Positions 1 through 22,337 of a stretch of 64,000 nucleotides of DNA are shown here, in pieces. The notes below the pieces were generated by a model. The model did no database searches, was not told where the DNA came from, and saw only the letters and a program-made list of their open reading frames with translations. The stretch spans positions 17,986 to 81,985 of the forward strand of contig CAKZNT010000040.1 of NCBI GenBank assembly GCA_937132065.1. Reading direction: 5' to 3'. Position numbers and translations under genes: made by a program. This DNA is from an uncultured Loktanella sp. (GTDB taxonomy: Bacteria; Pseudomonadota; Alphaproteobacteria; Rhodobacterales; Rhodobacteraceae). Within the stretch, counting starts at the first letter, position 1. Every line of letters starts with the position of its first letter.

Positions 1-780
1 ATCCAATTCGATTTGAATCGACTCTTCGCCGTCGTAGGCAACTTCAAATCCATACCTATACAAAACCCAATATCGGTCTTTTGCGACCGCGGAGGCTTGA
101 ATGCCTTTTCCATGACGCAAAAGTGAGCATCCTAGCATAAAGCAAAAGTTGGCTGTCGCGTGTAGTTTGTAACTGTCCAGCCAACTTGTTCCAGGCCCGT
201 TCTGCAGCCGGTGATCTAACCATTTGTCAAAATCAGTTGGGTCGCGGAGCTCTTGATCAAAATTTCCTGAGAGGATTGATGGCGCAATTTTCTCCATCTG
301 ACTTGAGATGTCATATCGGTTATGGGGGTTGGAATCCCTCCAAAGCGTTACCAGTGGGTGATTGTGTTTCGAGCAAATAGCGACGTGCGGAACCATCCAA
401 TGCCCTCGAAGCGCCATTGACCAGTGTGGGCGTAGATCTAAGTCTACAGCATCTTCTTTTAAGCAAATTGGGCAACCGCGGACTATAGGATCACGGATGA
501 TTTTTGACGGAAAGAGTTCCCCACAAAACCTATGCTGTCTATTTGACAGCTTTTGTGGTGTTGATTTCAAAAGTGTTTCGACTGACGCGCCACCTAGCCA
601 TGCAAGAGCCTCAATTACCTTTGGATCGCCATCCAAAACTTTCTGAAAGCTAATATCTTGATCGAGGCCGAACTCAGAGATGGACACACCATTTCGCGAA
701 CTCAGCCGCGACATGTAGGAAAAAGCCGTTTCATGGTCCTTAGAAATAAGACCGAGTCTTAATGGGGTAGACTGAACCAA
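1..780 (-). CDS. tniQ: TniQ/TnsD-family transposition target-selection protein (partial, 3' end outside window)
   Basis: The minus strand is open from a stop at 823-825 down to base 1, so the C-terminus is missing. I chose the TTG at 778-780 because GAGGAG at 787-792 sits 6 bases before it and no ATG is near. The 260 visible residues show the TniQ pattern: PLRLGL and SYMSRLS near the N-terminus, then a zinc-finger-like C103-x2-C106 and C136-x2-H139 with RPHW between them. TniQ proteins bind the attachment site, directly or through a partner, and recruit the TnsC ATPase. The gene follows the HAD-PRTase gene by 126 bases on the same strand. Its likely partners, tnsABC, are some 17 kb away, which is unusual because tniQ normally follows tnsC. 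Family assignment is firm; pairing with this tnsABC is inference. Confidence 0.85.
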   Translation of the reverse strand, partial: MVQSTPLRLGLISKDHETAFSYMSRLSSRNGVSISEFGLDQDISFQKVLDGDPKVIEALAWLGGASVETLLKSTPQKLSNRQHRFCGELFPSKIIRDPIVRGCPICLKEDAVDLDLRPHWSMALRGHWMVPHVAICSKHNHPLVTLWRDSNPHNRYDISSQMEKIAPSILSGNFDQELRDPTDFDKWLDHRLQNGPGTSWLDSYKLHATANFCFMLGCSLLRHGKGIQASAVAKDRYWVLYRYGFEVAYDGEESIQIELD

Positions 781-906
781 CAGGGTCTCCTCGTTAGCTT
801 TACGAATGGGATTGTAAATGGGTCAGAGTGTCGGAGGCCGCAGGTCATCGCCAGATATTGGTTGTTGATAAAAGCCGTATTCTGACGGTATTTGGTCAGC
901 TATTCC

Positions 907-2154
907 CTAAGGCCATTCCCAGTTGTAATATTTCTCAAAGACCGTGTTGAGGTCGGAAGTAGCTGCTGGATTGACGACGTATTGTGAAAACCAATGTGAA
1001 GTTTTGGCAGGTTCATTTTCAATTGTATTCGCCACATAGGGATCGGAAACTAGCACCATTGGATTCAACTCATTGTAATCCGTGCTGATGGTTTTTAGCC
1101 AAGAAAGGCAAATCACATCTGCTCCCGACGCTAGGATATATGCCCTTGCCGCTTCAAAGGAGTTTCCTTGGGTGCAAAAGTCATCAACAAGCAAAACAGT
1201 TTTTCCTTTCTTCAGCGGCGGGTTTTTATAGCGATCACCTTTCTTAGTTTTCAGAGGAGTAGGATTGAGGTGAATGGTATCGATCTGGTTTTTTATGCCA
1301 ACAGTTTGACCCGCAATTCGAGCGGTCTGAGATTTTTGCGCTGTTGTGTGCCGTATAAGAAGGTCTGGTATGAACTTTGCTTGCATACAGTCAGCAAAAA
1401 CAGTGAGCGCTTCATTGACGCTTGGATCAACTGAATCTGTAGAATGGCCTGGATAAGAAGTTACGAAGGAAATTTCTTCGGCAAGGCCTGAGGCATAAAC
1501 CGATGAGGCTAATAATCGCCCCCAAAAGGTGGCGTCTCCGCCTCCCGACTTGGCCGTATTCCTGGCATGGTAGGAGTAGCCATGCGCGTCCGTGTATCGA
1601 GCCGACATAGTCGAAAAGGGAGCCAGCGAAAACACTCGTAAGTTCTCACTTTCTAGCGCCCAGAACCATCCGTGAATTCCAATATAGAAACAATCAATGA
1701 ATCTCGCGATGTCTTTCGGGCTATCGAATTTGAAGCCGTAATCATTTGCCTCGCCATGCCACAACGCATTTAGGAAGAGCAAGCCACTGTTCCGAGCCGT
1801 TCGCATGTCTGTCTCGGTGTTCCCAACATAAACAGCTTCATTCTTTTCCCAGCCAAGTTGGTCAAGCACATACTCCATTGCCGCTTTTTTGGGTTTGTAG
1901 GGCATCGGAGAAGAGTCCGCCATGAACCAGTCAAAATCACCAATATTTGTGGCAACAAATTCTTGAAATGGAATTTTGCCTCCGTCTTTCAAAGTCATCG
2001 TCCAGCTGTGGTTCCCAACAAAGACGGGTTTAAGGTCGTTTGCTATCATCCATTTAATGAGCTTCTCAAACTCTTTAAAAATTGTTGCGTCCATGGTGCC
2101 GCTTTTGACGACCACGTCACGCAGTGAAAAGATCACACCTTTTAACTGTGACAA
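907..2154 (-). CDS. HAD-like domain fused to a phosphoribosyltransferase domain, putative defence protein
   Basis: A 415-residue two-domain protein. Residues about 1-155 resemble a HAD phosphatase, but motif I reads FSLRDVV (9-15) where the catalytic DxD should be, and the last motif reads VGNTETD (110-116) with Asn for Asp, so phosphatase activity is probably lost. Residues about 200-415 form a PRTase-like domain with the PRPP-binding loop VLLVDDFCTQGNS (320-332). Translation appears to start at a TTG with AGGA upstream, 9 bases after the stop of the DprA-like gene, so the two form an operon. Nucleotide-handling domains of this kind are common in prokaryotic conflict systems. The substrate is unknown, and a simple salvage role is possible but less likely in this context. 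Confidence 0.7.
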   Translation of the reverse strand: MSQLKGVIFSLRDVVVKSGTMDATIFKEFEKLIKWMIANDLKPVFVGNHSWTMTLKDGGKIPFQEFVATNIGDFDWFMADSSPMPYKPKKAAMEYVLDQLGWEKNEAVYVGNTETDMRTARNSGLLFLNALWHGEANDYGFKFDSPKDIARFIDCFYIGIHGWFWALESENLRVFSLAPFSTMSARYTDAHGYSYHARNTAKSGGGDATFWGRLLASSVYASGLAEEISFVTSYPGHSTDSVDPSVNEALTVFADCMQAKFIPDLLIRHTTAQKSQTARIAGQTVGIKNQIDTIHLNPTPLKTKKGDRYKNPPLKKGKTVLLVDDFCTQGNSFEAARAYILASGADVICLSWLKTISTDYNELNPMVLVSDPYVANTIENEPAKTSHWFSQYVVNPAATSDLNTVFEKYYNWEWP

Positions 2155-2163
2155 TTGAAAATC

Positions 2164-3189
2164 CTAAATGAGGTCAAGTTGGGTTTCGGGCAAAGGTAAA
2201 GGTGCAGACAATGCATTTAGCACAAATTCAAAAAATGAATTTTGATCACGAGGCACTGTGAATACTCCAGAATTAAAATGTGATTTGCTTGGTAGTAAAA
2301 CGCGAGTTTCGGGCCAATCAACAGCCTTTAGGGCGGCGATTGGTCGACGGAGTTTTGAAGCAAAGTTGACGGTGTGAGCTGTGCCGCTTTTAGGTGACCA
2401 CTCAATGGGAATTAGAACTTTCCCCAGTGCCGCTTGGAGCCTATTTCTGCGGACGAAGTTCTCGCCGCTATAGCTATCATTTGGCAGATACTCCGTCACG
2501 ATTGCACCACCTTCGCTAACAATCCTGTCGGCTAGTCGACTTGATCCTTTGGGATATTCGGTCTGTATTCCTGTCCCCAGAACCGCAATTGTAGGAACCT
2601 TCATCCGAATCGAAAACTCGTGGACGGCTTGATCCATTCCTGTCGCCAAGCCACTGACTGTCGATGCTTTCCAATCGGCAAGATTCATCCCGACATACTG
2701 GCTCAACCATTCGCCGTCCGCCGAAGGTTTACGCGTTCCAACTGCGGTGATGGAGGGCCTACTTAATGCCGTGGCGTCCCCTCTAATAAAGAGCCAAGCG
2801 GGAGGTTCTTCTAGGCCCAAGAGGGCTTTAGGATAAATTGCAGAACCTAAGAAAGCAATCTGGGTCCCTTTACTCAAAAGATCGTCGTATAGACGATGGG
2901 ATCTTTCCGATGCTTTGGAAGATGCGTCCTTCCAATCAATGTTCGATTCCCCAATTCTTGCACCGTGTTTTCGCAGCAGATTTGTGACTTCAGCGCCGTC
3001 ATCCAAATCTAGAATGCTACTGAATGTTATATTTTGGCGTTTCAGACCAAAAAGCGTCCAATACCCGACCCCTTTCAGGCTCGCCAAGGCAAGCAATGCT
3101 AGGGCCTCTTTGTTGCTGTGGTCGGATGCAATTAAACTATTTTCCAACTCTTTAAGCTTCCCATCTAAACAAATTTCGTAGGTCTCCAT
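2164..3189 (-). CDS. DprA/SMF-family (SLOG-fold) protein
   Basis: A 341-residue DprA-like protein. After an N-terminal helical region with LASLKGVGYWTLFGL (35-49, helix-hairpin-helix-like) comes the Rossmann-type SLOG domain: AVGTRKPS (149-156), SGLATGMDQAVH (179-190), VLGTGIQTEYP (203-213) and the FVRRNRL segment (245-251) that contacts DNA in DprA. The usual C-terminal winged helix is short or absent. A strong GGAGG precedes the ATG. True DprA loads RecA on transforming DNA; here the gene is paired with a HAD-PRTase gene 9 bases downstream inside a defence island, so a role in sensing or processing foreign DNA or nucleotides is more likely. It is probably not the genome's housekeeping dprA. 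Confidence 0.8.
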   Translation of the reverse strand: METYEICLDGKLKELENSLIASDHSNKEALALLALASLKGVGYWTLFGLKRQNITFSSILDLDDGAEVTNLLRKHGARIGESNIDWKDASSKASERSHRLYDDLLSKGTQIAFLGSAIYPKALLGLEEPPAWLFIRGDATALSRPSITAVGTRKPSADGEWLSQYVGMNLADWKASTVSGLATGMDQAVHEFSIRMKVPTIAVLGTGIQTEYPKGSSRLADRIVSEGGAIVTEYLPNDSYSGENFVRRNRLQAALGKVLIPIEWSPKSGTAHTVNFASKLRRPIAALKAVDWPETRVLLPSKSHFNSGVFTVPRDQNSFFEFVLNALSAPLPLPETQLDLI

Positions 3190-3306
3190 GGCCCTCCAAG
3201 AAATTACGAGTATCAGGAAAAAGGCAATAAACGACGTTCAAAACAGTATCATGTAGTGCCATCTTAGTTTGAAGAATATGTAACAGCAATGAGATGAACT
3301 GCTTTG

Positions 3307-4248
3307 TCAAAATCTCGACATTCCAGGTAATGACCAGCATAACTGCTCCGCTTCATCGCGGGTGCCCAAAAAAAATTCACCACCAAGGCTTTCGAGCTTT
3401 GCTGCGGCGCGGGCTTTGAAAAGGTTTTCTACGTCTTCGGCGGCTTGTTTGCTTGGGAACGCTTGAGAGGTTAGGCGGATCTCCCATTTCCCTGGGACCG
3501 CCGGGGGGAAGCTTTGGTTCAGCTCGTCTCGTCGGCGCACCGGATCATTGGACACACCGATCTTCAACATAACCGACTTGTCGCCGAAGGCCTTTTTGCG
3601 ACCCAGTAGAGAATGCCCATTGCCAGTATATTCTGCGAGATAAAGATAGGTATCGCCGTCTTCATAGATTGAGGTGCGTTCTCCTGCAGATCCTGGAAAT
3701 GCGCGGGATGGTTTGAATACCTCAGCGAACGGTTGGACCTTAGTATCGGCTTCAGCGATGGGTGGCTCCCCGAAGACGCTGACCTCGCGCACCTTGATTT
3801 TAAGGGCCTGCACGATTTCATCCGTGTCAAGGTCGGTGCCATGGGTGGCGAGCGACTGACCCGCCTCGGGACGGTAGGAGTTGAAAGCGATACGGCTGAT
3901 CATCACCTTTTCTTCAGCCCGCCATGCGCGGCGTATTGGGATGGCCTCGGACCATTGCCCCTCGTGTCCGGCATCGCGTTTGCGTGTCATACCTAATTCG
4001 GATGATTTCTCATGGTCGTGGATAGGGTTTGTATCGACCTGCACAAAACCCAGAACATAAGAGCGTTCGGCCTTAGCCGTTTCAGCGCTGACCGCGCCGT
4101 AAATCAGTATCAGATCACCATCGTTCAGCCGCGCAGCATAACGGTCGCGGGCGGAGCTTTTAGTCCAGCCAACATAGCCGTCTTCCTCGGGGCTGAATCC
4201 ATAGAATGACCGTGTCCAGATTTGCGTGCCTTCCGGAAGGGCGCTCAT
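3307..4248 (-). CDS. EVE/PUA-like domain fused to a GIY-YIG-type nuclease domain
   Basis: A 313-residue protein whose ATG overlaps the hsdS stop (ATGA), so it is translated with the restriction operon. Residues about 10-125 (WTRSFYGFS, LNDGDLILIYGA, SYVLGFVQVD) resemble an EVE/PUA-like modified-base reader. Residues about 198-300 match the T5orf172/MUG113 branch of GIY-YIG nucleases: YLYLAEY, LKIGVSNDPVRRRDEL (229-243) and a glutamate in AAEDVENLF that fits the metal ligand. Combining a modified-base reader with a nuclease suggests cleavage of modified phage DNA, complementary to the type I system. The EVE-like call rests on pattern only; the nuclease call is firmer. A 117-base gap separates it from the downstream DprA-like gene. 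Confidence 0.7.
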   Translation of the reverse strand: MSALPEGTQIWTRSFYGFSPEEDGYVGWTKSSARDRYAARLNDGDLILIYGAVSAETAKAERSYVLGFVQVDTNPIHDHEKSSELGMTRKRDAGHEGQWSEAIPIRRAWRAEEKVMISRIAFNSYRPEAGQSLATHGTDLDTDEIVQALKIKVREVSVFGEPPIAEADTKVQPFAEVFKPSRAFPGSAGERTSIYEDGDTYLYLAEYTGNGHSLLGRKKAFGDKSVMLKIGVSNDPVRRRDELNQSFPPAVPGKWEIRLTSQAFPSKQAAEDVENLFKARAAAKLESLGGEFFLGTRDEAEQLCWSLPGMSRF

Positions 4249-5963
4249 GCGGCCACTTCTTCGCGAGTTGCTGGCTCCAACGCCTCGTGCAGAAGGGCTT
4301 CGAGGAGGCGGGTGCGGGTTGTGTTGGCGGTGGTCAAAGTGGCCTCCAGGCGGTCGCAGAGGGCCATGAGGGCGTCGACTTTGGCTACGATGCGGTGTTG
4401 TTCTGCAAGAGGCGGGAGCGGCACTGGCAAGCCATTCATTGCTTTGAGAGAAAGGTTCTTGATCGTAGCTCCCGTTGCTTGTTTGATGGCGTATTCAACA
4501 TAGTAAGGTGTCTGGATTAGAATTCGAATGAACTGCATATCTACCAAGGGCGAAATTTCAAAATAGCAGGCACTCTTTCCAAGTAGAACGCGTTCACCGT
4601 TGTAGAAGGCATAGTTTGTCAGTGTGCCATTGATCGAAACGAGCAAAGTTCTTTCATTTAGAGGTTTCGCATGCTTCTCATACTCTTCCTGAGACACCAA
4701 TTTGGTATTTGGAAGGATTGAAATTTGCCCATCGCGAAGATTAGTCCCATTGATGAAGTGAATATTTCCAGTGCTAATGTAATTTGGGGTGCCGTGAAGT
4801 CCGTCGCCGAGATTGTAGGATAGCTCGCGTAAAGCAGCGACTGACCAGCTAGCAGGTAACGAGAAAGGCAAGTCTTCCTTGTTGCAGGAAAACTTGGTCG
4901 AACGCTTCATTTCTTGCGGTTCAACGTCTTCTTTTTTCCGCTTTCGAACCTGAACCAACAACTGTTCACCCGAACCATCCGCCTCATCCTGCTCCACAAG
5001 CTTCCCCTGCACGGCGAGGTTTAGGATGGTTTGGCGGAGGGTTTTGATTTGGTCGGGGCGGAATGTGAGGGTGGGGAGGGTCTCGAGGGCGAAGCGGGCG
5101 TGGGCGGGGAAGTCCTCGGGTGTTGTGTCGGCGGCGGTCAGTCGGCCGAGGCTGGCGGCGGTGAGCTTGTTGCGCGTCTCTTCGCGGGTCTTGCGGGCCT
5201 CTTCCAGCCGATCACAGAGCGCCATGAGTTCATCGACCTTCGCCACTATCCGATGCTGCTCTGCGAGGGGTGGGAGAGGAAAAGCGGTTTCATTGATTTG
5301 TTTTGAACTTAAATTCGGGATCGCGCTACCCAATGAAATGCTCAGGTTTCGCGCTATCACAGTCTCGAAAAATATTCTTACAAACTTGATACTTGTTGAG
5401 AACGCCTCAATGCGCCCAACACGTTGGTTTAGAAGAAGTTGGTGGCCAGTGCGGTTGAAGGCTGTTTTTCCAGTAGTTGCTCCGGACATTGCGAGCAAAA
5501 GAGCATTCTCAGGTATCCAGACTTCCTGCGAAACAGAATTTGCGGTCTCATCCGTAACACATTTTGCTGACGAAAGTGAAACCTCGCCGTCAACTAAATT
5601 GCCAATGCGGATGACCGGAACGCCAGATGCCTTGAAGTCGGCGCTCTTGAAAGCAAAGCCATTCCAAAGTTTGATAATGTTGCCAAGCGGTTGCCAAATC
5701 CATCCGGACGGCAGCAAAAACTCCTGATCTAGAGCTGAAACATTTTCTAGGGAAATTGCTGTCGAAACACGTATACCTTGTAGACGCTCAGCTTTCTCAG
5801 CTTCAATTTTTTTCAAAAGCACCGATGCTGGTTCTTCGTCCGAGATCTGTGCTACCAGTTTCCCGCGCACTGCAAGATCTAGAACAAACCTTCGTAGCCG
5901 CACGATGGCATCTGGCGCATCGCTGATCTTCTCATAATGTTCCAAAAGACGGTCGGCGTTCAT
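4245..5963 (-). CDS. hsdS: Type I restriction-modification system specificity subunit HsdS
   Basis: A 572-residue HsdS that directs the HsdM and HsdR subunits to a bipartite DNA target. It has two target-recognition domains (about 75-225 and 380-525), each followed by the same conserved helical segment: LPPLAEQHRIVAKVDELMALCDRLEE and later LPPLAEQHRIVAKVDALMALCDRLE. The recognition domains are visibly more A+T-rich than the helical segments, a usual sign of domain exchange. The ATG overlaps the hsdM stop by 4 bases, and the stop overlaps the start of the downstream nuclease gene, so the operon is tightly coupled. Both recognition domains look complete. The DNA sequence it recognises cannot be read from the protein. 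Confidence 0.95.
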   Translation of the reverse strand: MNADRLLEHYEKISDAPDAIVRLRRFVLDLAVRGKLVAQISDEEPASVLLKKIEAEKAERLQGIRVSTAISLENVSALDQEFLLPSGWIWQPLGNIIKLWNGFAFKSADFKASGVPVIRIGNLVDGEVSLSSAKCVTDETANSVSQEVWIPENALLLAMSGATTGKTAFNRTGHQLLLNQRVGRIEAFSTSIKFVRIFFETVIARNLSISLGSAIPNLSSKQINETAFPLPPLAEQHRIVAKVDELMALCDRLEEARKTREETRNKLTAASLGRLTAADTTPEDFPAHARFALETLPTLTFRPDQIKTLRQTILNLAVQGKLVEQDEADGSGEQLLVQVRKRKKEDVEPQEMKRSTKFSCNKEDLPFSLPASWSVAALRELSYNLGDGLHGTPNYISTGNIHFINGTNLRDGQISILPNTKLVSQEEYEKHAKPLNERTLLVSINGTLTNYAFYNGERVLLGKSACYFEISPLVDMQFIRILIQTPYYVEYAIKQATGATIKNLSLKAMNGLPVPLPPLAEQHRIVAKVDALMALCDRLEATLTTANTTRTRLLEALLHEALEPATREEVAA

Positions 5964-7414
5964 CGGGCCAGCGCCTCGGTCAGGATGGATTTCAACTCGG
6001 CGCGTAGGCTTTCGACGGAAGTCTCTGCCTTGGTTAGATCGTTCAGCAGGTCTTCTGGGTCGCCATGGTCATCTTCGACCACGTGGGGGTTTTTGATGTC
6101 GAGGTTAAAGCCACGCTCGCGGATCGTGTCGATTGACACCTTCCATGCTTGCTCGTTTTCCTCGCGGCCCTCGCGGCCCTCGCGGTCCACACCGCCCCAC
6201 CATTCGGCGCAGTCATCCAGATGCTCCAGCTTGATTGGTCGCGTCATTGAGTAGGCCTTTTGCCCCTCTGGCACGCGGTGCTCCCAATACCAGACGTCTT
6301 GCGTTGGCGTGCCCTTTTCAAAGAACAGCAGGTTGGTGCCGATGGAGGCGTAGGGTTTGAATACCGAGTTGGGCATGCGCACGATGGTGTGCAGGTTACA
6401 TTCCTTGAGGAGGTGTTCCTTAAGCCGCGTTTTGATGCCTTCGCCAAAGAGCGAGCCATCGGGGAGAACCACGGCTGCTCGGCCGTTATTCTTGAGCAGG
6501 CGAATGATGAGGGCGAGGAAGAGGTCAGCTGTTTCACGTGTCTTGAAAGCAGGGAAGTTGTTCTCGATCCCGTCCTCTTCCTTGCCACCAAACGGCGGGT
6601 TGGTGAGAATGATGTCGACGCGTTCATCCTTCGTCCAGCTGATTAGCGGACGGGCAAGGGTGTTGTCGTGCTTGACCCATGACGGCTCTTCGATGTTGTG
6701 GAGCAGCATGTTGGTTGTGCAGAGCATGTGGGGCAGCGGTTTCTTTTCCACCGCGCGGAGGGAGGCCTGCATGAGGGCCTCGTCCTCTGGCCGTTTGACG
6801 TAATTCTCGCGCATGTGGCGCATAGCGCAGGTCAGGAAGCCACCTGTGCCACAAGCGGGGTCCATCAGGATCTCGCCGGGGTGCGGGTCCATCTGCTTGA
6901 CGATGAAGGCAGTGACGGCGCGGGGCGTGTAGTATTCGCCGGAGTTGCCTGCGTTCTGAAGGTCGTTGAGTAACTGCTCGTAAAGGTCGCCGAAGTGCTG
7001 ACGTTCGGTCAGAGAGTTGAAGTCCACTTCGTTGATCTTGTTGATGACCTGACGCATAAGCGTGCCGGATTTCATGTAGTTGTAGGCGTCTTGGAAGACA
7101 GAGCGGACCACTTTGGCCCGAGGTGTCTTGCCTGGCAATTCCTTGAGCGTCGCGAAGAGGTCGTCGTTTACGAAGGTCAGTAAATCATCACCAGTGATGC
7201 CCTCAGGATCAGTGGCCCAATTCCGCCACTGAAGGTTCTCTGGGATTGGCGACGTATAGTCTTCGCTGTTGAATTCCATCGCTTCGTCTTGGTCGTCGAT
7301 AATTTTGAGGAAGAACATCCAAACGAGTTGTGACAATCGCTGTGCGTCACCGTCGACGCCAACGTCTTTGCGCATGACGTCTTGGATGGATTTGACGAGG
7401 TTTCTCATAGACAT
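5960..7414 (-). CDS. hsdM: Type I restriction-modification system methyltransferase HsdM
   Basis: A 484-residue N6-adenine methyltransferase subunit. The SAM-binding motif DPACGTGGF is at about 185-193, the catalytic NPPF at 272-275, and the region GRAAVVLPDGSLFGEG follows as usual. The N-terminal HsdM helical domain is present. I placed the start at the ATG 7412-7414, one base after the stop of the upstream protease-like gene; a longer frame uses a TTG at 7432 and another ATG lies at 7408. Near the C-terminus three 9-base units at 6161-6187 encode an REG repeat, whose copy number could vary without shifting the frame. Intact motifs suggest a working methylase. Confidence 0.95.
   Translation of the reverse strand: MSMRNLVKSIQDVMRKDVGVDGDAQRLSQLVWMFFLKIIDDQDEAMEFNSEDYTSPIPENLQWRNWATDPEGITGDDLLTFVNDDLFATLKELPGKTPRAKVVRSVFQDAYNYMKSGTLMRQVINKINEVDFNSLTERQHFGDLYEQLLNDLQNAGNSGEYYTPRAVTAFIVKQMDPHPGEILMDPACGTGGFLTCAMRHMRENYVKRPEDEALMQASLRAVEKKPLPHMLCTTNMLLHNIEEPSWVKHDNTLARPLISWTKDERVDIILTNPPFGGKEEDGIENNFPAFKTRETADLFLALIIRLLKNNGRAAVVLPDGSLFGEGIKTRLKEHLLKECNLHTIVRMPNSVFKPYASIGTNLLFFEKGTPTQDVWYWEHRVPEGQKAYSMTRPIKLEHLDDCAEWWGGVDREGREGREENEQAWKVSIDTIRERGFNLDIKNPHVVEDDHGDPEDLLNDLTKAETSVESLRAELKSILTEALAR
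6161..6187. repeat. Three tandem 9-bp units inside hsdM
   Basis: The units are CTCGCGGCC, CTCGCGGCC and CTCGCGGTC, placed head to tail. They encode a charged REG-REG repeat near the HsdM C-terminus. A 9-base period keeps the reading frame when copies are gained or lost, so length variation between strains is likely to be tolerated. Confidence 0.8.
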
Positions 7415-7415
7415 G

Positions 7416-7961
7416 TTATTCAGTCTTTTCAATTAACAGGAGTTCACTCGGCTTTATACAAGTTTTGCCTTCGGAGGCGGTTTTGACTTCTCCGATGTAT
7501 ATTTCCTCTATCAAGAAGGGTTTCACCGGATTTTTCTTCGCGATGCTGTCGATCTTCTTCCAGCCATATTTGGTGTCATATGTAACTACAATCCAGTGAT
7601 CGCTTGGCGAAGTGATCCGTAAGATTGCGCATTTCGACTTTGAATTTGGTAGGAAAAAATTTTCGAGCTCTTGGACGAAGGTTTTTAGCGTTCGGCGGTT
7701 CTTGTTTGCACGCCTTACCTGCAGGTGCGCCGATCCCGATTGTTTAATGCACTCCTCTACCAGGCGATGCATTTCGCCAAATGCTATGCCATTTCTGTTA
7801 AGCTCATCGAGAGGGATAATTGTTTCATCGCAACAAACATCGAAAAAGTATTCTGCACCAAGCAGTTTCGCCTTTTTACGGCACTCGAGGTAGCGGAAAG
7901 CATTTGCAATTGCATAAAAGCCGCAGAAAAAATCAAACGTCCCTTGTTGGCCAAACCTCAT
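7416..7961 (-). CDS. Papain-like cysteine protease family protein encoded inside the hsd operon
   Basis: A 181-residue protein encoded between hsdR (5-base gap) and hsdM (1-base gap), so it is part of the operon. The N-terminus, FGQQGTFDFFCGFYAIANAF, resembles the active-site helix of C39/papain-like peptidases: a Gln seven residues before Cys13, followed by Gly and a hydrophobic helix. SDHWIVVTYD supplies a His at 122 and WKKIDS an Asp at 138, giving a plausible Cys-His-Asp triad in the expected order. No signal peptide or membrane segment is visible, so it is likely cytoplasmic. It is not a standard part of type I systems. It might process a restriction subunit or a phage protein, or be an immunity factor. 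Fold assignment is from motifs only. Confidence 0.6.
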   Translation of the reverse strand: MRFGQQGTFDFFCGFYAIANAFRYLECRKKAKLLGAEYFFDVCCDETIIPLDELNRNGIAFGEMHRLVEECIKQSGSAHLQVRRANKNRRTLKTFVQELENFFLPNSKSKCAILRITSPSDHWIVVTYDTKYGWKKIDSIAKKNPVKPFLIEEIYIGEVKTASEGKTCIKPSELLLIEKTE

Positions 7962-7966
7962 TGTGG

Positions 7967-12214: not shown

Positions 12215-12275
12215 TTTGCACACCTTATCTGTGCTTTCCTTAAGAAAACATACCAGAAGTGAATTAATAAAGAAA

Positions 12276-12293
12276 GTTAACTAATTAATTGAC
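12276..12293. promoter_or_regulatory. Imperfect palindrome in the frcR/frcB intergenic region, candidate operator
   Basis: GTTAACTAATTAATTGAC matches its own reverse complement at 14 of 18 positions. It lies in the A+T-rich gap between the divergent frcR and frcB genes, where a ROK repressor would be expected to bind. Binding is inferred. Confidence 0.4.
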
Positions 12294-12396
12294 GCAGGGA
12301 CAGAATCGCGCAATGTTACGCCCAGCAACTGCAACATGCAGAACGCTGGGAGATTGGGGCAGGCGCCCCACACAAATTGATTTCTGGGAGGAAACG

Positions 12397-13404: not shown

Positions 13405-13427
13405 GCCTTTAGCACGCTAGAGTAGTG

Positions 13428-13457
13428 AAAGGGCGGCATTGCGATGTCGCCCTTTTT
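13428..13457 (+). terminator. Intra-operon terminator/attenuator between frcB and frcC
   Basis: The arms AAAGGGCG (13428-13435) and CGCCCTTT (13448-13455) form an 8-bp stem, followed by a T-run. It lies 24 bases after frcB and 40 before frcC. Partial termination here would give excess binding protein over membrane components. Confidence 0.8.
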
Positions 13458-13497
13458 CTCACAATCGGACCGGACAAGTTTGGGGAAAACACAGATT

Positions 13498-14577: not shown

Positions 14578-15344
14578 GTGATATTCAACCAGTCATCCGT
14601 GCACGCGGTCTGATGAAACGCTATGGCACTGTAATCGCCATGGATGGGGCCGATTTTGACCTCTACCCTGGTGAGATTTGTGCAGTTATCGGCGATAACG
14701 GCGCGGGCAAGTCAACGCTGATCAAGGCGCTGTCTGGCGCGGTCACACCCGACCACGGCGAGGTTCTCGTCGACGGCAAACCTGTTCACTTCAAGTCGCC
14801 AGATGACGCGCGCCGCGAAGGGATCGAGACGGTTTACCAAAACCTCGCTTTGTCGCCAGCGTTGTCCATTGCTGACAACATGTTCTTGGGTCGGGAAATC
14901 CGCAAAGAGGGGATCATGGGCTCGGTCTTTCGCCAGATGGACCAACGCAAGATGCAAGACTTTGCACGCGATAAGCTGTCGGAACTTGGCCTGATGACGA
15001 TCCAGAACATCAACCAAGCAGTTGAGACGCTCTCGGGCGGTCAGCGGCAAGGCGTGGCTGTGGCCCGCGCAGCAGCATTCGGGTCTAAGGTCATCATCCT
15101 AGACGAGCCAACCGCGGCGCTCGGCGTCAAAGAATCCCGCCGCGTGCTGGAGTTGATCCTCGACGTGCGCTCACGCGGTATTCCGATCATCCTGATCAGC
15201 CACAACATGCCGCATGTGTTCGAGGTCGCGGATCGCATCCATGTGCACCGTTTGGGCAAACGGCTCTGCGTCATCGATCCCAAGGACTATACGATGTCCG
15301 ACGCGGTGGCCTTTATGACAGGGGCAAAAGAAGCGCCCGTTTAG
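14574..15344 (+). CDS. frcA: Fructose ABC transporter ATP-binding protein FrcA
   Basis: A 256-residue single-domain ATPase that powers FrcC; related sugar importers of this class often have two fused ATPase domains, but FrcA has one. Walker A is GDNGAGKST, the signature is LSGGQRQGVAVARA, Walker B is VIILDEPTAALG and the switch His is in LISHNM. The ATG overlaps the frcC stop. No kinase gene follows, unlike the frcBCAK order known in Sinorhizobium, so sugar phosphorylation must be encoded elsewhere. A hairpin at 15363-15408 could end the transcript. Confidence 0.88.
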   Translation: MSDIQPVIRARGLMKRYGTVIAMDGADFDLYPGEICAVIGDNGAGKSTLIKALSGAVTPDHGEVLVDGKPVHFKSPDDARREGIETVYQNLALSPALSIADNMFLGREIRKEGIMGSVFRQMDQRKMQDFARDKLSELGLMTIQNINQAVETLSGGQRQGVAVARAAAFGSKVIILDEPTAALGVKESRRVLELILDVRSRGIPIILISHNMPHVFEVADRIHVHRLGKRLCVIDPKDYTMSDAVAFMTGAKEAPV

Positions 15345-15362
15345 ATCTCGACTTCCCCTTTC

Positions 15363-15573: not shown

Positions 15574-17370
15574 TCAAAAATTCAATATTCCCGCGGAGAC
15601 CTTGTTAAGGTCACGTTCCAATTGTGACTGAAGCCGATTTATTCTGACAAGAGTATCTTGGCGCGTTTGAAATGCCTTTAAAAAGAGTTTTTGCCGTGCG
15701 GCAAATTTCTTGTTGTGTGCAACATTTTCTTTGGACTTGTTCTTAAAAACGAGAAGCGGCTCGGCAATTTCAAGCCGTTCGATGCTGCCAATGGAAAGGG
15801 ACGGGCTTCGTATGTCGGTTGCCGTTTCTCTCCAGTATTTTTGAATTACCGGAGATTGCAGATACATGAACAGCATACGTGGATCGCAGGCTGGTCTTCC
15901 AATTTGGTCTGCTGATTTGGTGCGAGCCCGCAAAATCATTACGGATTGGCCCGCCCATACTTTTAGATCGCTTCCGTCATCGCCAAGTTTTGGAACGTAG
16001 TAGGCGACGCGACCAACAGGGCCGCGATGAGCAAGTAGAATATCTCCAGGGCTGAGTTCCTGCTCTTCAAGCTTGTCGGCTTTTGTAGTCATCACCAAAA
16101 GCTGTCGAGAGGTCTCTGCAATCTCTCCCAATTCGGTAATGTCGCCGGCACGCACTTCGGTTATTGGGAAATCCCCGTTGGAATCATGGCGGGTCGTTTT
16201 TGGGCGAATAACATCGAACAGGTCTGCCAACCGTGTTCTGACTGGCCTATGCAGGTTTTCAAATATCTTCTGAAGCTCATTGCCGGCTGTAGGACCGTTT
16301 CCGAGGTATTTGGATGGTAGTAGGACACCTTGAAGGTTTTCTATTTCGGCAGGACTAATTGTCTGGTTCGCCCCCCGAAGTTCCCTTGCTTCAAATTCAA
16401 ACTGCTGCGGGAGACGGTTCGCACTTTTCATTATAACATTATCATAATGCTGGTCTGCGGCACCAAGCTCGACTGCAAAGCGGGTTATTTTTTTTAGATC
16501 ATGAATCGCGGCGACACTCCGCATTCTGCCAGATTTCCGAAGAATTTTTCGCGTGTGTGCCCTGGACCGTTTTGGTGTTGTCAGGAAGTCATGAGAAACA
16601 AAAGCCAACGATGACGATGGCCGCGTTGCAAGGTAGGCCAGCATGACGCTTTCTAGATCAAATTTCTTATTGTCGACCGCGCGTGGAATTTTGGTTTTAC
16701 GAATGCTGGGTTCGATTTCGTCGTCTTTTTTTTGATAACCAGACCAATCGTCAGAGGTAAAGACAGCAGGGGGGCAGGTAACCTCAAGGCCAGGTGCCGT
16801 GATAGTAGGTTCGTCGTCAACATCATCGTCAGTGTCTATGACTTCTGTTTCCCACGGCGTCCCAGTTTCAACGTGAATAGGTAATTCCAGAAAAAGTGCT
16901 GTAACCGCTACGAGAGATAAATCCGCCTCAATCCCCGCGTATACTACAGGAGCTGGCGCTCTGTCGCGCCGAGTAGGGCGGGAGACCGTGTTGGCATAGG
17001 TTAAACATGCCACAATTGCTGCAGGGAATGAGAAACGGATGACTTTGTATGGGCCGCAATATTTAAGAGTGTCCTCAATCAACTGAGTGTTAATCAATGC
17101 ATTCTCGATATTCGCATTCGAAATTAGGCTGATCACGGCCTTCACGCGATCAGCCTGCTCAAAGCTCTCGATGAGGCTTGCGACATAAGTAAGGTCTAGC
17201 TCGCGGGAAATGGTTGGCGTCTGCGTTTTTATATTGAAGCGTGTTTCAACATCATTGAGCGCCTTTAAGTTTGTCTTCCCTGCGCGTTTTCGGATTGCAT
17301 GCTGCAATAGTTGAGTAATGTCCTCAATCGTCGAAAAGTCGAAGGCAACGATTTTTTCGGCAAAACTCAT
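15574..17370 (-). CDS. Degenerate N6-methyltransferase-like domain fused to an HsdS-like target-recognition domain
   Basis: A 598-residue protein; the ATG at 17370 has GGGGAG upstream. Residues about 140-300 resemble the core of a type I/ISP N6-adenine methylase: VVYAGIEADLSLVAVTALFLELP (143-165) matches the GxE motif, and LAFVSHDFL (255-263) the strand after the catalytic loop. The catalytic NPPY/F is replaced by CPPA (199-202), and no DxxxGxG SAM motif is evident, so it is probably inactive. Residues about 380-560 look like an HsdS recognition domain (ITEVRAGDI, LSPGDILLAHRGPVGRVAYY, SPSLSIGSIERLEIAEPL), with a helical tail. It is divergent from tnsABC across a 785-bp structured gap. It may be a DNA-recognition factor for the transposon or a remnant of a restriction system. 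Confidence 0.65.
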   Translation of the reverse strand: MSFAEKIVAFDFSTIEDITQLLQHAIRKRAGKTNLKALNDVETRFNIKTQTPTISRELDLTYVASLIESFEQADRVKAVISLISNANIENALINTQLIEDTLKYCGPYKVIRFSFPAAIVACLTYANTVSRPTRRDRAPAPVVYAGIEADLSLVAVTALFLELPIHVETGTPWETEVIDTDDDVDDEPTITAPGLEVTCPPAVFTSDDWSGYQKKDDEIEPSIRKTKIPRAVDNKKFDLESVMLAYLATRPSSSLAFVSHDFLTTPKRSRAHTRKILRKSGRMRSVAAIHDLKKITRFAVELGAADQHYDNVIMKSANRLPQQFEFEARELRGANQTISPAEIENLQGVLLPSKYLGNGPTAGNELQKIFENLHRPVRTRLADLFDVIRPKTTRHDSNGDFPITEVRAGDITELGEIAETSRQLLVMTTKADKLEEQELSPGDILLAHRGPVGRVAYYVPKLGDDGSDLKVWAGQSVMILRARTKSADQIGRPACDPRMLFMYLQSPVIQKYWRETATDIRSPSLSIGSIERLEIAEPLLVFKNKSKENVAHNKKFAARQKLFLKAFQTRQDTLVRINRLQSQLERDLNKVSAGILNF

Positions 17371-17484
17371 ACAGCGCTCCCCAGCGTTTAGCTTGATTAA
17401 GCAAAGACGCGAGTCTGCCTTAAATGTCAAAGTAGAACTGAAGGTCTAGAATAGCGTCCAACAGGAAGCTGTAAATTTCTTCGA

Positions 17485-17827: not shown

Positions 17828-17922
17828 GTGACTGGAAATCCAGCTACCACACATGAACTGATAGTTCATAGCAGCCTTCGAGGCAACGGATTTCCCTCAA
17901 TATGAGCACGTCACGCATGAGT

Positions 17923-17999
17923 GACCGATCGCTGGTAACGCCAACGACCGGTCGCCTCTGCCTAGATGAAATGCAGTGCCGGTCGGCGAAATGACCGGA
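17923..17999. repeat. Four copies of a GACCG(G/A) motif upstream of tnsA
   Basis: The copies are GACCGATC (17923), CGACCGGTCG (17945, a perfect palindrome), GCCGGTCGGC (17978) and GACCGGA (17993). They lie 157-233 bases before the tnsA ATG. They could be binding sites for a regulator of transposition genes. They are too short and irregular for a CRISPR array. Confidence 0.4.
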
Positions 18000-18155
18000 A
18001 CCCCAATCATATTCTTGGCTCAAAATTCCCGCTCAAATTTTTCTGCGTGAATTAAGCCAAGCCCCCTCGTGAATTTCGATCAAGCGCCTGGAAGGCCACG
18101 ATCCAAATTACATCGAATTCAGCTGGAAATTCCGATTTCCAGAATTGGAGAAGCT

Positions 18156-18914
18156 ATGTCACTTGATGATATTGACGACGTCGAAACCCTCTATGGGATT
18201 AAGAAACTACCTCGCCAGTCTAAGATTGAGCTACGCGAAATTCATGGAGTTTTGCCAAGCCGCCACGACCGAAACCCAATTAGAACTAGCGCCACGTCAC
18301 AAACCTCGACATTCGTATACAAAGTTGCGGCGACGGGCTTCAAAGAGGAAATCGGGCTTGTAGAGAGTCAGGCCGAGGTCGCTGTGGGCGAAGAGCTTTT
18401 GCTCTCACCAGAGACCTATGATGTTGAGTTCCAGCCACTTACATTCGACTACGAATATCCGAAAGGGCGCACAAAACCGCACACAATTGATATTCGGCTG
18501 ACCACGATCTCTGGCCGGCGGGTGTTAGTTTTTGTTCGCTATGAGGAGAGCCTACTAAAGCCAAAAGTGTGGGATGAGATCGAAGCAATTCGGGCTGCTT
18601 ACCCCCGAACAGAGGCAGATGATTTCATTGTCATCAATGCGAATGATTACACGCGTCCAAGGCGTGAAAACCTTCGCAGGATGCATCGATTGGTGATGTT
18701 TCAGCCGGACGATTTGGCCGACGAAATGGTTTTTGAAGCAGTTCAAGAACTGAAGACGCTGTGGCTAATGAAGGATCTTTGCAAGGCAATGAACCTTTCG
18801 AAAGCCCGCGTTTTCCAGTCCTGCCTTCGGTTGATCGCTAGAGGCCGACTTGGCGCCAACATGGACGCAGTCATTTGTCATCATTCACGGATCTGGAGGA
18901 CCGAAACATGCTGA
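18156..18914 (+). CDS. tnsA: TnsA-like endonuclease of a Tn7-like transposon
   Basis: A 252-residue TnsA homologue; in Tn7, TnsA cuts the 5' ends so that the element moves by cut-and-paste. The ATG at 18156 has GGAG 5 bases upstream and is preferred over a GTG 29 codons earlier. The N-terminal restriction-enzyme-like fold is recognisable: VESQAEVAVGE with E74, VEFQPLTFDYEYP, then HTIDIRL with D112. Where TnsA has Q-x-K, this protein reads F-V-R (126-128), so the usual catalytic lysine is replaced by arginine. The C-terminal part (about 190-252) is the helical domain that contacts TnsC in Tn7. The stop overlaps tnsB by 7 bases. Family is clear; nuclease activity is uncertain. Confidence 0.8.
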   Translation: MSLDDIDDVETLYGIKKLPRQSKIELREIHGVLPSRHDRNPIRTSATSQTSTFVYKVAATGFKEEIGLVESQAEVAVGEELLLSPETYDVEFQPLTFDYEYPKGRTKPHTIDIRLTTISGRRVLVFVRYEESLLKPKVWDEIEAIRAAYPRTEADDFIVINANDYTRPRRENLRRMHRLVMFQPDDLADEMVFEAVQELKTLWLMKDLCKAMNLSKARVFQSCLRLIARGRLGANMDAVICHHSRIWRTETC

Positions 18915-21088
18915 AACCAAAATACAACATCGCGCGTGGGATGGAGTTTTCTCATCCCAGTGCGGGGAAGCAGGTCGTTACTCAAAGCAAGAATGGTGCC
19001 TACCATGCGGTGAGCGTCGAGACTGGGCAAACCTCTGTTTTGACCTATCGAGAGATGATTTCGACGTTGAGCCGTCCTGGCACGTCTGCCGCTAACGGTC
19101 ATAAGAGTTTTGCCGCTGGAAGTGCGCGTATTCGCGATGGTGGTTTGCACCATGAAGCGCAGCTTACGCCTAAAGTGCGTCAACAAAAGAGGTTTCTTGG
19201 CGCTGTAATGCGCGGGATCAAAGAGTTAGAAGATGGAGGACTTCGCATTTACGCGACGGGTCTCAACGACTTAGAAACGCGGAAAGAGATCGCTGCGATT
19301 GCGCGTCAGGAATATACCGAGCACCCTATTGCGGTAGTTATGCGAGGTGGTTCGATTTCGTTTTTGGCGGTGATGCCTGCTGGTCGAACACTCATGCAGA
19401 AATACGAACAATGGGTGGAATCTGGGTATGACGACATGGTTCTTCCCGACCACTCTCATTTTCGTGGCAATCGGACAAACCACGGAGTTTGCCAGCGTCT
19501 TTACGAGCTGATTTCGGAGGCCATTGAAAGTGTTTACCTCGATACGAGGAAACCAACGCCTGCAGCAGTTCTAAGAAAACATACCGACTTGGTCGTTGTT
19601 GAAAATGAATCTCGTCGACGCAACGATCTTAAAGAACTGAAAGCGGTCGCCCACAAAACCATTACGCGCCAAATCAAGAACCTAAATAAGACGGCCGTTG
19701 ATATTGCGCGAGAGGGTGAGCGATGGGCTTTGAATAACCGAACAAGTGGGTCGACTGATTATCGATCGCTTATGATCGGTGAGGAGGTCGAAATTGACGA
19801 GTGCAAACTGTCATTGATTGTGGAGGCGCGGAGGAAAGGGATTTGGGACCGCTTAAGCCCCGAGCAGCAAGAGGCCCTCGAAGAAATTGATGAGATTATC
19901 AAAACCCGAATTTGGCTTGTCTTGATGCTTGATGTTGCAACTCGCAACCCACTTGGTTGGGCATTGACGGATACACCCTCTCATGAGGTAACTTTGGAAG
20001 TTATCAGAATGGCAACGCGTGATAAAACACGTGAAGCGCGTAAATACGGGTGTGAGTGCGAGCCGATGCCTGCTGTTGGTATCGGCTGTATGAAGGGCGA
20101 TAACGGGACTGGTCTCCGAAATTCAGAAGTGAAATCGACTGCCAGCGGAATTCGAACGCAGACTGTTGATGCGCGCACCTATCGTGGCGTCGATAAGCCC
20201 TATGTCGAGCGGATTTTTGGCACGATCGAAAGTGTGCTGATCAGTATGCTTACCGGTTACACAGGGCGTCGTGCAGGGCAGGTGCCTGGATATGACCCAA
20301 TCGCAAGTGGCGTCCTTGATGTCGAAGAGCTCTACGGGATCATCACGCGCTACTTGATCGACGTGTATCCCCAGGAGCGTCACTACGGTGTGACAATGAT
20401 GGGCGCACGGCCAGCTAACATGGCAAGAGCAGTAAATGATGAATACGGGTGCATTCTTCCACCTGCCGATCATGACAGACGGATTCAGCTTGGGTGGTCG
20501 GATGAGGCCAAAGTCACAGATGATGGGGTCAAGTTTTTGAACCTGCCTTACAATTCGAAAGACCTTCAAGACGTCCGTGATGCGGTAAAAGGTAAAGTCA
20601 CTGTCTTTGTCGATCCCGACAACATTGCCAGTGCCACGATTTTGGTGGTTGGGCGCCCGGAGCCGATCCTGGTTGAGTTGACTTGGACCGCGATGCGAGA
20701 CTTGACGTTACACGAATTTTTGGACGTCGCACTTCAGGCCCGCAAGGAAGCACCCGAAGAAACGCGGCTGATCGAAAGTCATCTCGCTAAGGTCCGCGGT
20801 GATCTCGAAGCTGACATGACGCAAAAGATGCGTGAGCGAAAAGTGCCGCGAAGCTTTCACACGTGGCCTGAAGCGCTCAAAAAGGCTCAAGTTATTCGTA
20901 GGGGCATGCAGGATCTGCGCCAGTCGGAGCCAATGGCTGGGACAGTTCAGGCTGGACGTATCATGGACGCTGTGCGTGATGATTTGCCCGACCACGGCAC
21001 CGCGCAGATCGAAGATCAGGCCAATGAGATCATCACGCCAGAAACGGCTAAGTTTGCGCCCCCCAAAAACACAGGAAAACTGTCATGA
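18908..21088 (+). CDS. tnsB: TnsB/TniA-type DDE transposase
   Basis: A 726-residue transposase that binds the element ends and performs 3' cutting and strand transfer. I chose the ATG at 18908 with GGAGG 8 bases upstream; a TTG 11 codons earlier is weaker. The integrase catalytic triad is complete: D297 (EVEIDEC), D398 (KGDNGTG) and E434 (KPYVERIF), with the D-x35-E spacing typical of the superfamily. A helix-turn-helix-rich N-terminal half precedes it, and a Mu-type C-terminal barrel (VTVFVDPDNIASATI) follows. A C-terminal tail of about 130 residues probably contacts TnsC. The gene overlaps tnsA by 7 bases and tnsC by 4. Confidence 0.93.
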   Translation: MLKPKYNIARGMEFSHPSAGKQVVTQSKNGAYHAVSVETGQTSVLTYREMISTLSRPGTSAANGHKSFAAGSARIRDGGLHHEAQLTPKVRQQKRFLGAVMRGIKELEDGGLRIYATGLNDLETRKEIAAIARQEYTEHPIAVVMRGGSISFLAVMPAGRTLMQKYEQWVESGYDDMVLPDHSHFRGNRTNHGVCQRLYELISEAIESVYLDTRKPTPAAVLRKHTDLVVVENESRRRNDLKELKAVAHKTITRQIKNLNKTAVDIAREGERWALNNRTSGSTDYRSLMIGEEVEIDECKLSLIVEARRKGIWDRLSPEQQEALEEIDEIIKTRIWLVLMLDVATRNPLGWALTDTPSHEVTLEVIRMATRDKTREARKYGCECEPMPAVGIGCMKGDNGTGLRNSEVKSTASGIRTQTVDARTYRGVDKPYVERIFGTIESVLISMLTGYTGRRAGQVPGYDPIASGVLDVEELYGIITRYLIDVYPQERHYGVTMMGARPANMARAVNDEYGCILPPADHDRRIQLGWSDEAKVTDDGVKFLNLPYNSKDLQDVRDAVKGKVTVFVDPDNIASATILVVGRPEPILVELTWTAMRDLTLHEFLDVALQARKEAPEETRLIESHLAKVRGDLEADMTQKMRERKVPRSFHTWPEALKKAQVIRRGMQDLRQSEPMAGTVQAGRIMDAVRDDLPDHGTAQIEDQANEIITPETAKFAPPKNTGKLS

Positions 21089-22104
21089 GTTTCATTCAAG
21101 AAAAAACGTTTGCCGTCACGAAAACCCTTCAGGGCGCCCACTATGCGTTTGAGAGGGCCAAAGAACTTCGCGCTGGCATGGAGTGGATGATTACGGATTA
21201 CGCTGCCAAGGCGGCCAACGAGAGGCCGTTTGAGGCGCGCGGTCTAATTGTTACGGGACCATCACGCACCGGGAAGTCGGATGAAATCGCAAACATGCTG
21301 AGCGCTGTAAATGACGGTTCCACAATTATGCCAGACGGTCGCCCCGCAATGATCGAGAAGGTTACATTGAGTGGTTCCTTAAGCTTCAAGGAACTCGGCA
21401 AAAGGACCCTGAAAGATGCGCTTGGTTATGGCGTCAACGGTTCGGATAAATTGGCCAGCCGTTCAAACCAAGACGACGTATGGGACAAGGTCTTTTTTCA
21501 AGCGAAAGAGCAGGGGGTCATTGGTATCCATTTCGATGAATGCCAACACATCTTTTCGGGTAAAAGCGCTGCAGTCCGGCGGGTTGTTCTGGATAGTTTC
21601 AAGTCTTTGCTCAAGCGGACAGATTGGCCGTTGATGTTGATCTTGTCTGGGGTCGATGATTTGACCGCTTATGTATCTGAGGAAGAGCAACTTTCTTACC
21701 TTCTGCGACCGATCGAATTCGGTGAAATCCGATCATACAATCAGGCCGACCTGAGTGAGATCAATGACCTTTGCCACCTCTATGCCGGCAAAGTTGATAT
21801 GATTTTTCCTAAGGATTTATGGACGGAAGACTTCTTCAAGCGATTGGCATTTAGTTCAGGAAATCGCTGGGGTCTATTGATTGAGCTTGTGATCAGCGCA
21901 CTGAAAATCGCTCATGCAGCTGATGCCGATCATGTTGGCAGGTCAAGTTTTTGCAGGGCATTCACCGATCGAACCGCGTTCCCAATCGGACATTCTCCTT
22001 TTGTGACGGATGACTATGAAGCTGCGTTCGACACCCAAAAGATCTTGGATATGGTTCGGCGGAAAGAGGTCGCAGCGAAGGCCAAGGCGCAAAAGGCGAA
22101 ATAA
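21085..22104 (+). CDS. tnsC: TnsC/TniB-type AAA+ ATPase regulator of transposition
   Basis: A 339-residue AAA+ ATPase that links target choice by TniQ to the transposase. Walker A is GPSRTGKS (58-65), Walker B is GIHFDECQH with D151-E152, and LILSGVDDL fits sensor 1. The ATG overlaps the tnsB stop by 4 bases. No tniQ follows: the gene is succeeded by a rho-independent terminator and then the right-end repeats. Transcription therefore runs out toward the transposon end, whereas in Tn7 and Tn5053 the transposase genes start beside an end and read inward. Confidence 0.92.
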   Translation: MSFIQEKTFAVTKTLQGAHYAFERAKELRAGMEWMITDYAAKAANERPFEARGLIVTGPSRTGKSDEIANMLSAVNDGSTIMPDGRPAMIEKVTLSGSLSFKELGKRTLKDALGYGVNGSDKLASRSNQDDVWDKVFFQAKEQGVIGIHFDECQHIFSGKSAAVRRVVLDSFKSLLKRTDWPLMLILSGVDDLTAYVSEEEQLSYLLRPIEFGEIRSYNQADLSEINDLCHLYAGKVDMIFPKDLWTEDFFKRLAFSSGNRWGLLIELVISALKIAHAADADHVGRSSFCRAFTDRTAFPIGHSPFVTDDYEAAFDTQKILDMVRRKEVAAKAKAQKAK

Positions 22105-22139
22105 GTTTCGACACACCTCAATCTGTTTCGTTATTGAAG

Positions 22140-22163
22140 CCCGCGCATTGCGCGGGTTTTTTT
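22140..22163 (+). terminator. Terminator of the tnsABC operon
   Basis: The stem CCCGCGC (22140-22146) pairs with GCGCGGG (22150-22156) around ATT, followed by seven T. It lies 35 bases after tnsC and insulates the chromosomal genes to the right. Confidence 0.92.
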
Positions 22164-22192
22164 ATGTGGATAGACTGAATTTAACACTGAGG

Positions 22193-22322
22193 ATTTGCAT
22201 GCTTATGCGTTAAATTTGCATGGTTATGGAGGACTCGCCATTGGCGCGCGCTTTATTCCTTATTAATCAAGGGCTTACCAATGCTCCCTATTGATTCTAT
22301 TGGGAAATTTGCACTCTTATGG
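22193..22322 (+). repeat. Three direct repeats at the right transposon end, probable TnsB binding sites
   Basis: Copies are ATTTGCATGCTTATGC (22193-22208), ATTTGCATGGTTATGG (22214-22229) and ATTTGCACTCTTATGG (22307-22322). The first two are 21 bp apart, about two helical turns; the third ends 10 bp before the candidate terminus. The arrangement of outer and inner sites inside a TGTCAG end matches transposase-binding arrays of the Tn7 family. Confidence 0.75.
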
Positions 22323-22337
22323 GCTACTGACAGTGTG
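22323..22337. other. Candidate right terminus (22332) and target-site duplication
   Basis: Read inward from 22332 the complementary strand begins TGTCAGTAGCCC. The next five chromosomal bases, GTGTG (22333-22337), would be the target duplication if the element follows the usual 5-bp rule. The exact boundary needs the left end or an empty site. Confidence 0.55.

Follow-up and report, generated by a model that had tools for sequence, protein, structure and literature searches.

How a transposon that keeps its target selector and its transposase genes on opposite sides of a long cargo recognizes its site, and whether two such modules form one unit at all, are the questions raised by a 64,000-nucleotide stretch of DNA (hereafter the window) from an uncultured Loktanella sp. 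It comprises positions 17,986 to 81,985 of contig CAKZNT010000040.1 (81,985 bp; assembly GCA_937132065.1). An earlier reading of these letters alone, the original prediction, placed a tniQ fragment at the window's left edge and tnsABC about 17 kb away, and proposed a split-module transposon acting as a mobile defence island. We also read the DNA left of the window, in a stretch, L002, whose numbering is that of the contig; other L numbers denote sequence stretches around loci, and G numbers denote genomes. We now read the locus, with a probability of about 0.85, as a complete 23,528-bp Tn7-like transposon that is inserted 14 bp past the nrdJ stop codon and carries tniQ on the nrdJ side and tnsABC at the far end, TniQ being the predicted TnsD-type selector for the nrdJ 3’ end.

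Ends, target duplication and insertion site

Both ends of the element were found. The left end lies 1.2 kb beyond the window's left edge, at contig position 16790 (L002:16790, window -1195), where the sequence TGTCAGTAACCCATAAGAATGCAAATTT directly follows a GTGTG pentamer (L002:16785-16789); no left end was seen in a search within the window itself. The right end (window 22193-22332) closes with ...AAATTTGCACTCTTATGGGCTACTGACA and is followed by the second, equal copy of GTGTG at 22333-22337. The original prediction had located this right end and its pentamer correctly, and its proposal that an inverted copy flanked by GTGTG would appear upon leftward extension was borne out. The terminal inverted repeat of the far end (22305-22332, minus strand) equals the nrdJ-side end at 26 of 28 positions, each beside the same 5-bp duplication, whereas none of 300 shuffles gave more than 18. 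This terminal repeat includes the outermost TnsB-type repeat (22308-22321), and two further, adjacent repeats lie at 22194-22228 (22194-22207 and 22215-22228, minus strand), as exact matches to CATAAnnnTGCAAA. Five exact copies of CATAAnnnTGCAAA occur in the 81,985-bp contig, all confined to the element ends (two left, three right), versus a mean of 0.017 expected by chance (first-order Markov simulation, 60 runs). Arrayed repeats at both ends, which TnsB would bind, together with a 5-bp target duplication, are features of Tn7-like elements. The G+C fraction is 0.506 within the element and 0.593 and 0.578 in its flanks.

The left neighbour is nrdJ (L002:14377-16770), encoding an adenosylcobalamin-dependent ribonucleotide reductase (TIGR02504, 591.9 bits, cut-off 399.95), whose stop codon precedes the left GTGTG by 14 bp. 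On the right, a convergent DUF2177 gene has its stop codon 14 bp from the right GTGTG, so that 33 bp are predicted between the two convergent stops without the element. The original prediction did not name a host gene; the site lies behind nrdJ, and not behind glmS as in prototypic Tn7. We searched for the empty site using nrdJ, which matched in 57 of 60 relatives, and using the right flank, which matched in 39 of 56 genomes of the genus, in many of them over a short stretch. The right-flank proteins occurred in 0 of 61 nrdJ loci or downstream stretches (L103-L132 and L153-L183; the window's own included, some short), and no empty allele of the nrdJ/DUF2177 junction was seen among the searched relatives. 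In searches of an open library of papers, from which most subscription papers are missing, we did not find the nrdJ 3’ end described as an attachment site.

Within the window's genus (L104-L132), the DNA 3’ of nrdJ varies between genomes, and end-like sequences 17-40 bp past the nrdJ stop appear, by eye, to be common to L104/L108/L121, to L105/L128/L129, and to L111/L125. No TniQ of the nrdJ clade defined below was nearby. Because the 3’ DNA varies and end-like sequences recur without such a TniQ, elements of several kinds may favour nrdJ as a hotspot.

Because the ends match and the target duplication is common to both, the separation of tniQ from tnsABC falls within one unit. It might be supposed that two elements only look like one here, tniQ being the leftover of an older nrdJ element and tnsABC belonging to a second that landed beside it; the closest kin of TniQ and TnsB do differ, and stacked elements are indeed found behind nrdJ in relatives (see below). 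That account leaves unexplained why the tniQ-side and tnsC-side ends are so alike, with a common repeat and a 5-bp duplication, and why matching ends and duplications likewise bracket four other nrdJ elements. We rejected it as extremely improbable, on the matching ends and the duplication.

The transposition genes

The single element is thus bounded by ends that enclose a complete tniQ. The fragment at the window's left edge represents the first 260 codons (1-780, minus strand) of a 613-codon gene (L002:16924-18765) that encodes 613 amino acids, its 3’ end directed toward the left transposon end. As in other Tn7-like transposons, a TniQ-domain protein (PF06527, 67.3 bits) is encoded between the element ends. 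The zinc motif noticed in the fragment is conserved: in an alignment of 29 sequences including the window's, Cys136 and His139 are invariant, and Cys103 and Cys106 are at least 90% conserved. Sequence-profile searches against solved structures gave no relative for TniQ or TnsA; fold comparison of models did find relatives for both. Residues 1-316 of the TniQ model match TniQ and TnsD structures, residues 374-430 match MerR/excisionase DNA-binding folds, and the back half is modelled as about five helix-turn-helix folds in a row.

The genes tnsA, tnsB and tnsC occupy window 18156-22104 and read right, as had been predicted. An NCBIfam scan returned nothing for TniQ or for any of their products. 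TnsA (18156-18914, plus strand) has 252 amino acids when counted from an ATG that is common to relatives; the open frame starts at 18069. Its match to PF08722 (E 8.7e-4) was below the curated cut-off, and its model (predicted local distance difference test score 84.9) matches TnsA of Tn7 (1t0f_B, E 1.1e-8; also 1f1z). Arg128 of this TnsA occupies the strand end at which PD-(D/E)xK nucleases carry their catalytic lysine. Residue 128 is arginine in 33 of 33 aligned TnsAs; in another alignment it is arginine in 9 of 10 and lysine in G262. TnsB (18875-21088, plus strand) is a DDE transposase: its family alignment matches TnsAB/TnsB structures (best E 5.8e-33), Asp308, Asp409 and Glu445 are invariant (n = 9), and PF09299 scores 22.0 bits against a cut-off of 21.7. 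For TnsC (21085-22104, plus strand), probably an AAA ATPase, PF05621 scores 20.0 bits, below the cut-off of 22.4; operon position and kin, including 52% identity to the tnsC product of G127, agree with this assignment.

With 17 kb between tniQ and tnsA, the genes do not form the single tnsABCDE block of prototypic Tn7. A remnant of an operon-type tniQ sought upstream of the window's tnsA gave a best match of E 0.22, and no independent tnsABC was seen to the left: a search of the 19 kb of L002 comprising tniQ and its left-hand flank gave no homologue of TnsA, TnsB or TnsC.

A direct-binding, TnsD-type role for TniQ is predicted from its length, its modelled folds and its association with the site. 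The front half of TniQ would recruit TnsC, and the back half, if the modelled row of helix-turn-helix folds is right, would read the nrdJ end. TnsB presumably binds the CATAAnnnTGCAAA repeats and would, with TnsA, excise the element, which would then insert 10-18 bp past nrdJ and leave that gene whole. Because the cargo lies between tniQ and tnsA, each gene module would be kept beside one end. TniQ might instead serve as an adaptor only, the site being picked by a guide RNA or by a different protein of the cargo. Adaptor TniQs exist, according to PMC10293859, and the cargo encodes a 618-amino-acid protein (15574-17430, minus strand), without a Pfam match and with a weak HsdS-like C-terminal part (PADLOC Specificity_I, E 7.6e-10, residues 424-565). 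We consider this improbable: the 613 residues of TniQ are within the range above 400 amino acids where the same paper expects direct selection, and folds resembling DNA-binding domains line up along its modelled back half. Furthermore, no direct-repeat array was found in window 1-22332, and no cas effector was found among the proteins scanned, in which the one weak match (Csa3) was to the helix-turn-helix of the ROK-family cargo regulator. The clustered regularly interspaced short palindromic repeats (CRISPR) array and the effector genes that define CRISPR-associated transposons were thus not seen in the DNA and proteins scanned.

TniQ relatives and their attachment genes

We searched 295 genomes from the family, nearly one per genus and including the window's own, for relatives of TniQ; 69 of them matched with E ≤ 0.001, and we fetched the surroundings of the best. 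Among TniQs at 45-51% identity, those of G039, G097 (frame-shifted) and G042 (front missing) are beside nrdJ, that of G051 survives as 97 residues roughly 5 kb away from the gene, and a 201-residue piece in G218 is not beside it; nor is the TniQ of G088 (42%). A partial TniQ in G013 (37%) is beside nrdJ. The G051 locus is a decayed element, in which a single open frame (L068:10035-12104) fuses a TniQ piece (residues 297-389, 54%) with most of TnsB. At 28-36% identity the neighbour was different. In 14 of 17 fetched loci (L070, L072-L076, L083, L085 and L091-L099), a tRNA gene lies tail-to-tail with tniQ, at most about 310 bp from its 3’ end; 12 of these are tRNA-Arg, one is tRNA-Gln and one tRNA-Met.

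A second set came from scanning genome contigs with an alignment of five TniQs, which gave 45 loci and overlaps the family survey in some genomes (e.g., G097 and L223). nrdJ is tail-to-tail beside tniQ in 24 of the 45 (20 within 250 bp, four within 2.6 kb), far in one, and absent from the fetched DNA in 20; the neighbours come from draft genomes, and some are lost at contig ends. Wherever the organism is named, the nrdJ cases are all Rhodobacterales.

In a tree of 61 TniQs, all 18 nrdJ-labelled rows fall within one clade of 25 (support 98/96), to which the window's TniQ belongs; the other seven rows lie by another element or gene, or are not settled. All 15 tRNA rows fall within one clade of 18 (97/93), and three guaD rows fall together in another (100/99), the guaD label being the record annotation for Paracoccus ferrooxidans and assigned by inspection of the protein for the other two. 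The recurrent pairing of this TniQ clade with the nrdJ 3’ end in other genomes is, like the ends, duplication and gene order of the window's element, a matter of direct sequence comparison.

Several observations concern TniQs at other addresses. A TniQ clade at 41-42% identity (L209-L213, L215) is not at nrdJ, and several of its members have an open frame of about 117 codons just after tniQ, in the same direction. At L218:11700-12332, an nrdJ-clade TniQ is followed tail-to-tail by a gene other than nrdJ, which we take to be upp; this is possibly a change of address within the nrdJ clade. A P. ferrooxidans plasmid element (L188:11472-16908) carries a tandem pair of tniQ genes, of which the outer ends at guaD, and is possibly a two-address element.

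Split architecture and separate insertions

The layout of the window's element, in which tniQ points outward on the attachment side and tnsABC points outward at the far end, is shared. It was found with nrdJ-clade TniQ, on contigs that hold both TniQ and TnsABC, in the window, G376, G387, G379, G375, G377, G378, G386 and G400, the last having two split elements in a row; contig numbering direction in these genomes was confirmed by sequence except for G377. The same split occurs with other TniQs in G067, G262, L208 (Thioclava) and L188, the latter two with almost no cargo between tniQ and tnsABC, and G183 has a broken back-to-back copy of the arrangement. One plasmid locus of Tritonibacter mobilis (L189) does not fit, as its tniQ and tnsABC are co-directional about 7 kb apart; it is perhaps not one element. 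When TnsB was sought through the loci of 30 genomes, 20 gave any match, several of them on other contigs. The original prediction was right that this is a split-module transposon, Tn7-like and one unit by its ends and duplication; the split is an architecture common to a family and no peculiarity of the window's copy.

We examined six nrdJ elements for inverted ends and a 5-bp duplication, comparing the nrdJ side with the DNA beyond tnsC, and found both in five (a simple exact-seed search had recovered no ends in relatives). Their duplications are GTGTG in the window's element, 14 bp past the nrdJ stop; TCTGG at 18 bp (L193/G375); GTTGT at 17 bp (L195/G377); CGGTC at 10 bp (L197/Tabrizicola soli); and GAAGC at 15 bp (L206/G387). 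The paired ends are alike at 22-26 of 28 positions, equalled by 0 of 300 shuffles, the far end lies 213-242 bp from the tnsC stop, and the elements measure about 20.4, 23.5, 23.9, 31.4 and 39.4 kb. In the sixth, L196, no end pair was found in the tested stretch, whose bounds were guessed; this element is probably incomplete, because no tnsC was found there either.

Could the nrdJ link reflect ancestry rather than targeting, that is, one old inherited insertion whose cargo and transposase have been replaced? The restriction of named nrdJ cases to Rhodobacterales would fit such a history. With five different duplications placed 10-18 bp past the stop, ends of three kinds and transposases from three TnsB lineages, the five elements are separate insertions at one site; cousin TniQ clades at other fixed sites likewise speak against inheritance, which we regard as very improbable.

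Elements also accumulate at these sites. T. soli has two stacked split elements (L225, L197), L203 has two TniQs in a row at nrdJ, and on visual inspection the far ends in L208 and L239 directly adjoin the end of a further element.

TniQ and TnsB have different histories

In a tree of 31 TnsBs, the window's groups with those of G127, G171 and G382 (99/97), in which a distant tniQ leads the tnsABC operon. A second clade (100/100) unites L197, L206, L198 and L194 with the tRNA, guaD and Thioclava elements; L193, L195 and L196 form a third (100/100), and L205 is in a fourth. TniQ and TnsB of the window are thus not of one lineage, a question that the original prediction had proposed to check: TniQ belongs with nrdJ-adjacent TniQs and TnsB with operon-type elements. 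In a paired set of 15 elements, nine with nrdJ-clade TniQ, forcing these nine into one TnsB clade cost 353 log-likelihood units and was rejected (approximately unbiased test, p = 3.8e-5). The converse TniQ constraint was not significant (p = 0.083), the small TniQ tree being poorly resolved.

Since nrdJ-type TniQ occurs with at least three TnsB lineages, and the TnsB data reject one origin, we take it that transposon lineages have swapped address genes and transposase operons, with either tniQ or tnsABC as the mover. A likely setting for exchange is the accumulation of multiple elements behind a single gene, as seen in relatives. Among genes within 50 kb of tnsC, Faure et al. (PMC10293859) report no more than a few examples favouring tniQ/tnsD exchange. 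On balance we lean toward an exchangeable address system in alphaproteobacterial Tn7-like transposons: an nrdJ-addressed tniQ cassette at the attachment side would have passed between TnsABC lineages, at least three of them, that are deeply separate and have end sequences of their own, cousins would address tRNA-Arg and guaD, and placement at opposite ends with cargo between would enable the trade.

Cargo

Nearest tniQ is a DprA/HAD-phosphoribosyltransferase pair, which the original prediction had recognized and which proves to be ShosTA: a ShosT-like HAD + phosphoribosyltransferase protein (907-2154, minus strand; PADLOC E 7.9e-87) and a ShosA-like DprA-family protein (2164-3189, minus strand; E 5.2e-79). 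The type I restriction operon (3307-10441, minus strand) was likewise confirmed by PADLOC and Pfam, with HsdS at 4245-5963, HsdM at 5960-7432, HsdR at 7967-10441, and two extra genes inside it (3307-4248 and 7416-7961) that gave weak matches only; one has weak T5orf172 (GIY-YIG-like) and EVE signals, the other only sub-threshold matches. A further 4.3 kb (11015-15344, Pfam) hold a ROK-family regulator (minus strand) and sugar ATP-binding cassette (ABC) transporter genes (plus strand). The cargo is mixed, defence by ShosTA and type I restriction plus sugar transport, so the mobile defence island describes it in part; its movement is what we infer.

Comparison with known systems

For Tn7 we rely in part on PMC11406308. 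The element resembles Tn7 in having TnsA, TnsB and a probable TnsC with a TniQ-domain protein as predicted selector, a 5-bp duplication, insertion just past a conserved gene, a tnsABC that points away from the attachment side, and repeats that are close-set at that side and spaced at the far end. It differs in its site, as Tn7 combines tnsABC with tnsD and inserts behind glmS, and in its lone outward tniQ at the attachment side with cargo between tniQ and tnsA. No match to TnsE was found among the cargo proteins scanned with Pfam. The closest TnsABC proteins are those of operon-type elements in family relatives (G127:C12, G171:C11, G382:C8; for G127, TnsB 46%, TnsA 53% and TnsC 52%), but their TniQ is only about 24-28% identical over the aligned part and comes first in a tniQ-tnsA-tnsB-tnsC operon.

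Type I-F3 CRISPR-associated transposons also carry tnsABC and tniQ in two operons with cargo, some oppositely oriented, according to PMC12452197, and PMC12150760 describes the two operons as apparently on separate evolutionary trajectories. They differ in their cas genes and repeat array, neither of which was found here, and in having the attachment gene nearest tnsA, whereas here it is beside tniQ. In Tn6022, as described in PMC10293859, the target selector TnsE is placed close to one end, distant from the remaining transposon genes; there tniQ forms an operon with tnsF and the site is inside comM, whereas in the present element it is tniQ that lies apart, and insertion is behind nrdJ.

Implications

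The nrdJ 3’ end would be a chromosomal attachment site that was not found in the literature searched, with about two dozen natural cases. It also introduces a family whose attachment gene adjoins tniQ, not tnsA; because of this, a rule that names the gene nearest tnsA would give the wrong site. The family further offers a set of natural combinations of a single selector type with several transposases, and such a set makes it testable which region of TniQ determines the site and which has to fit TnsC.

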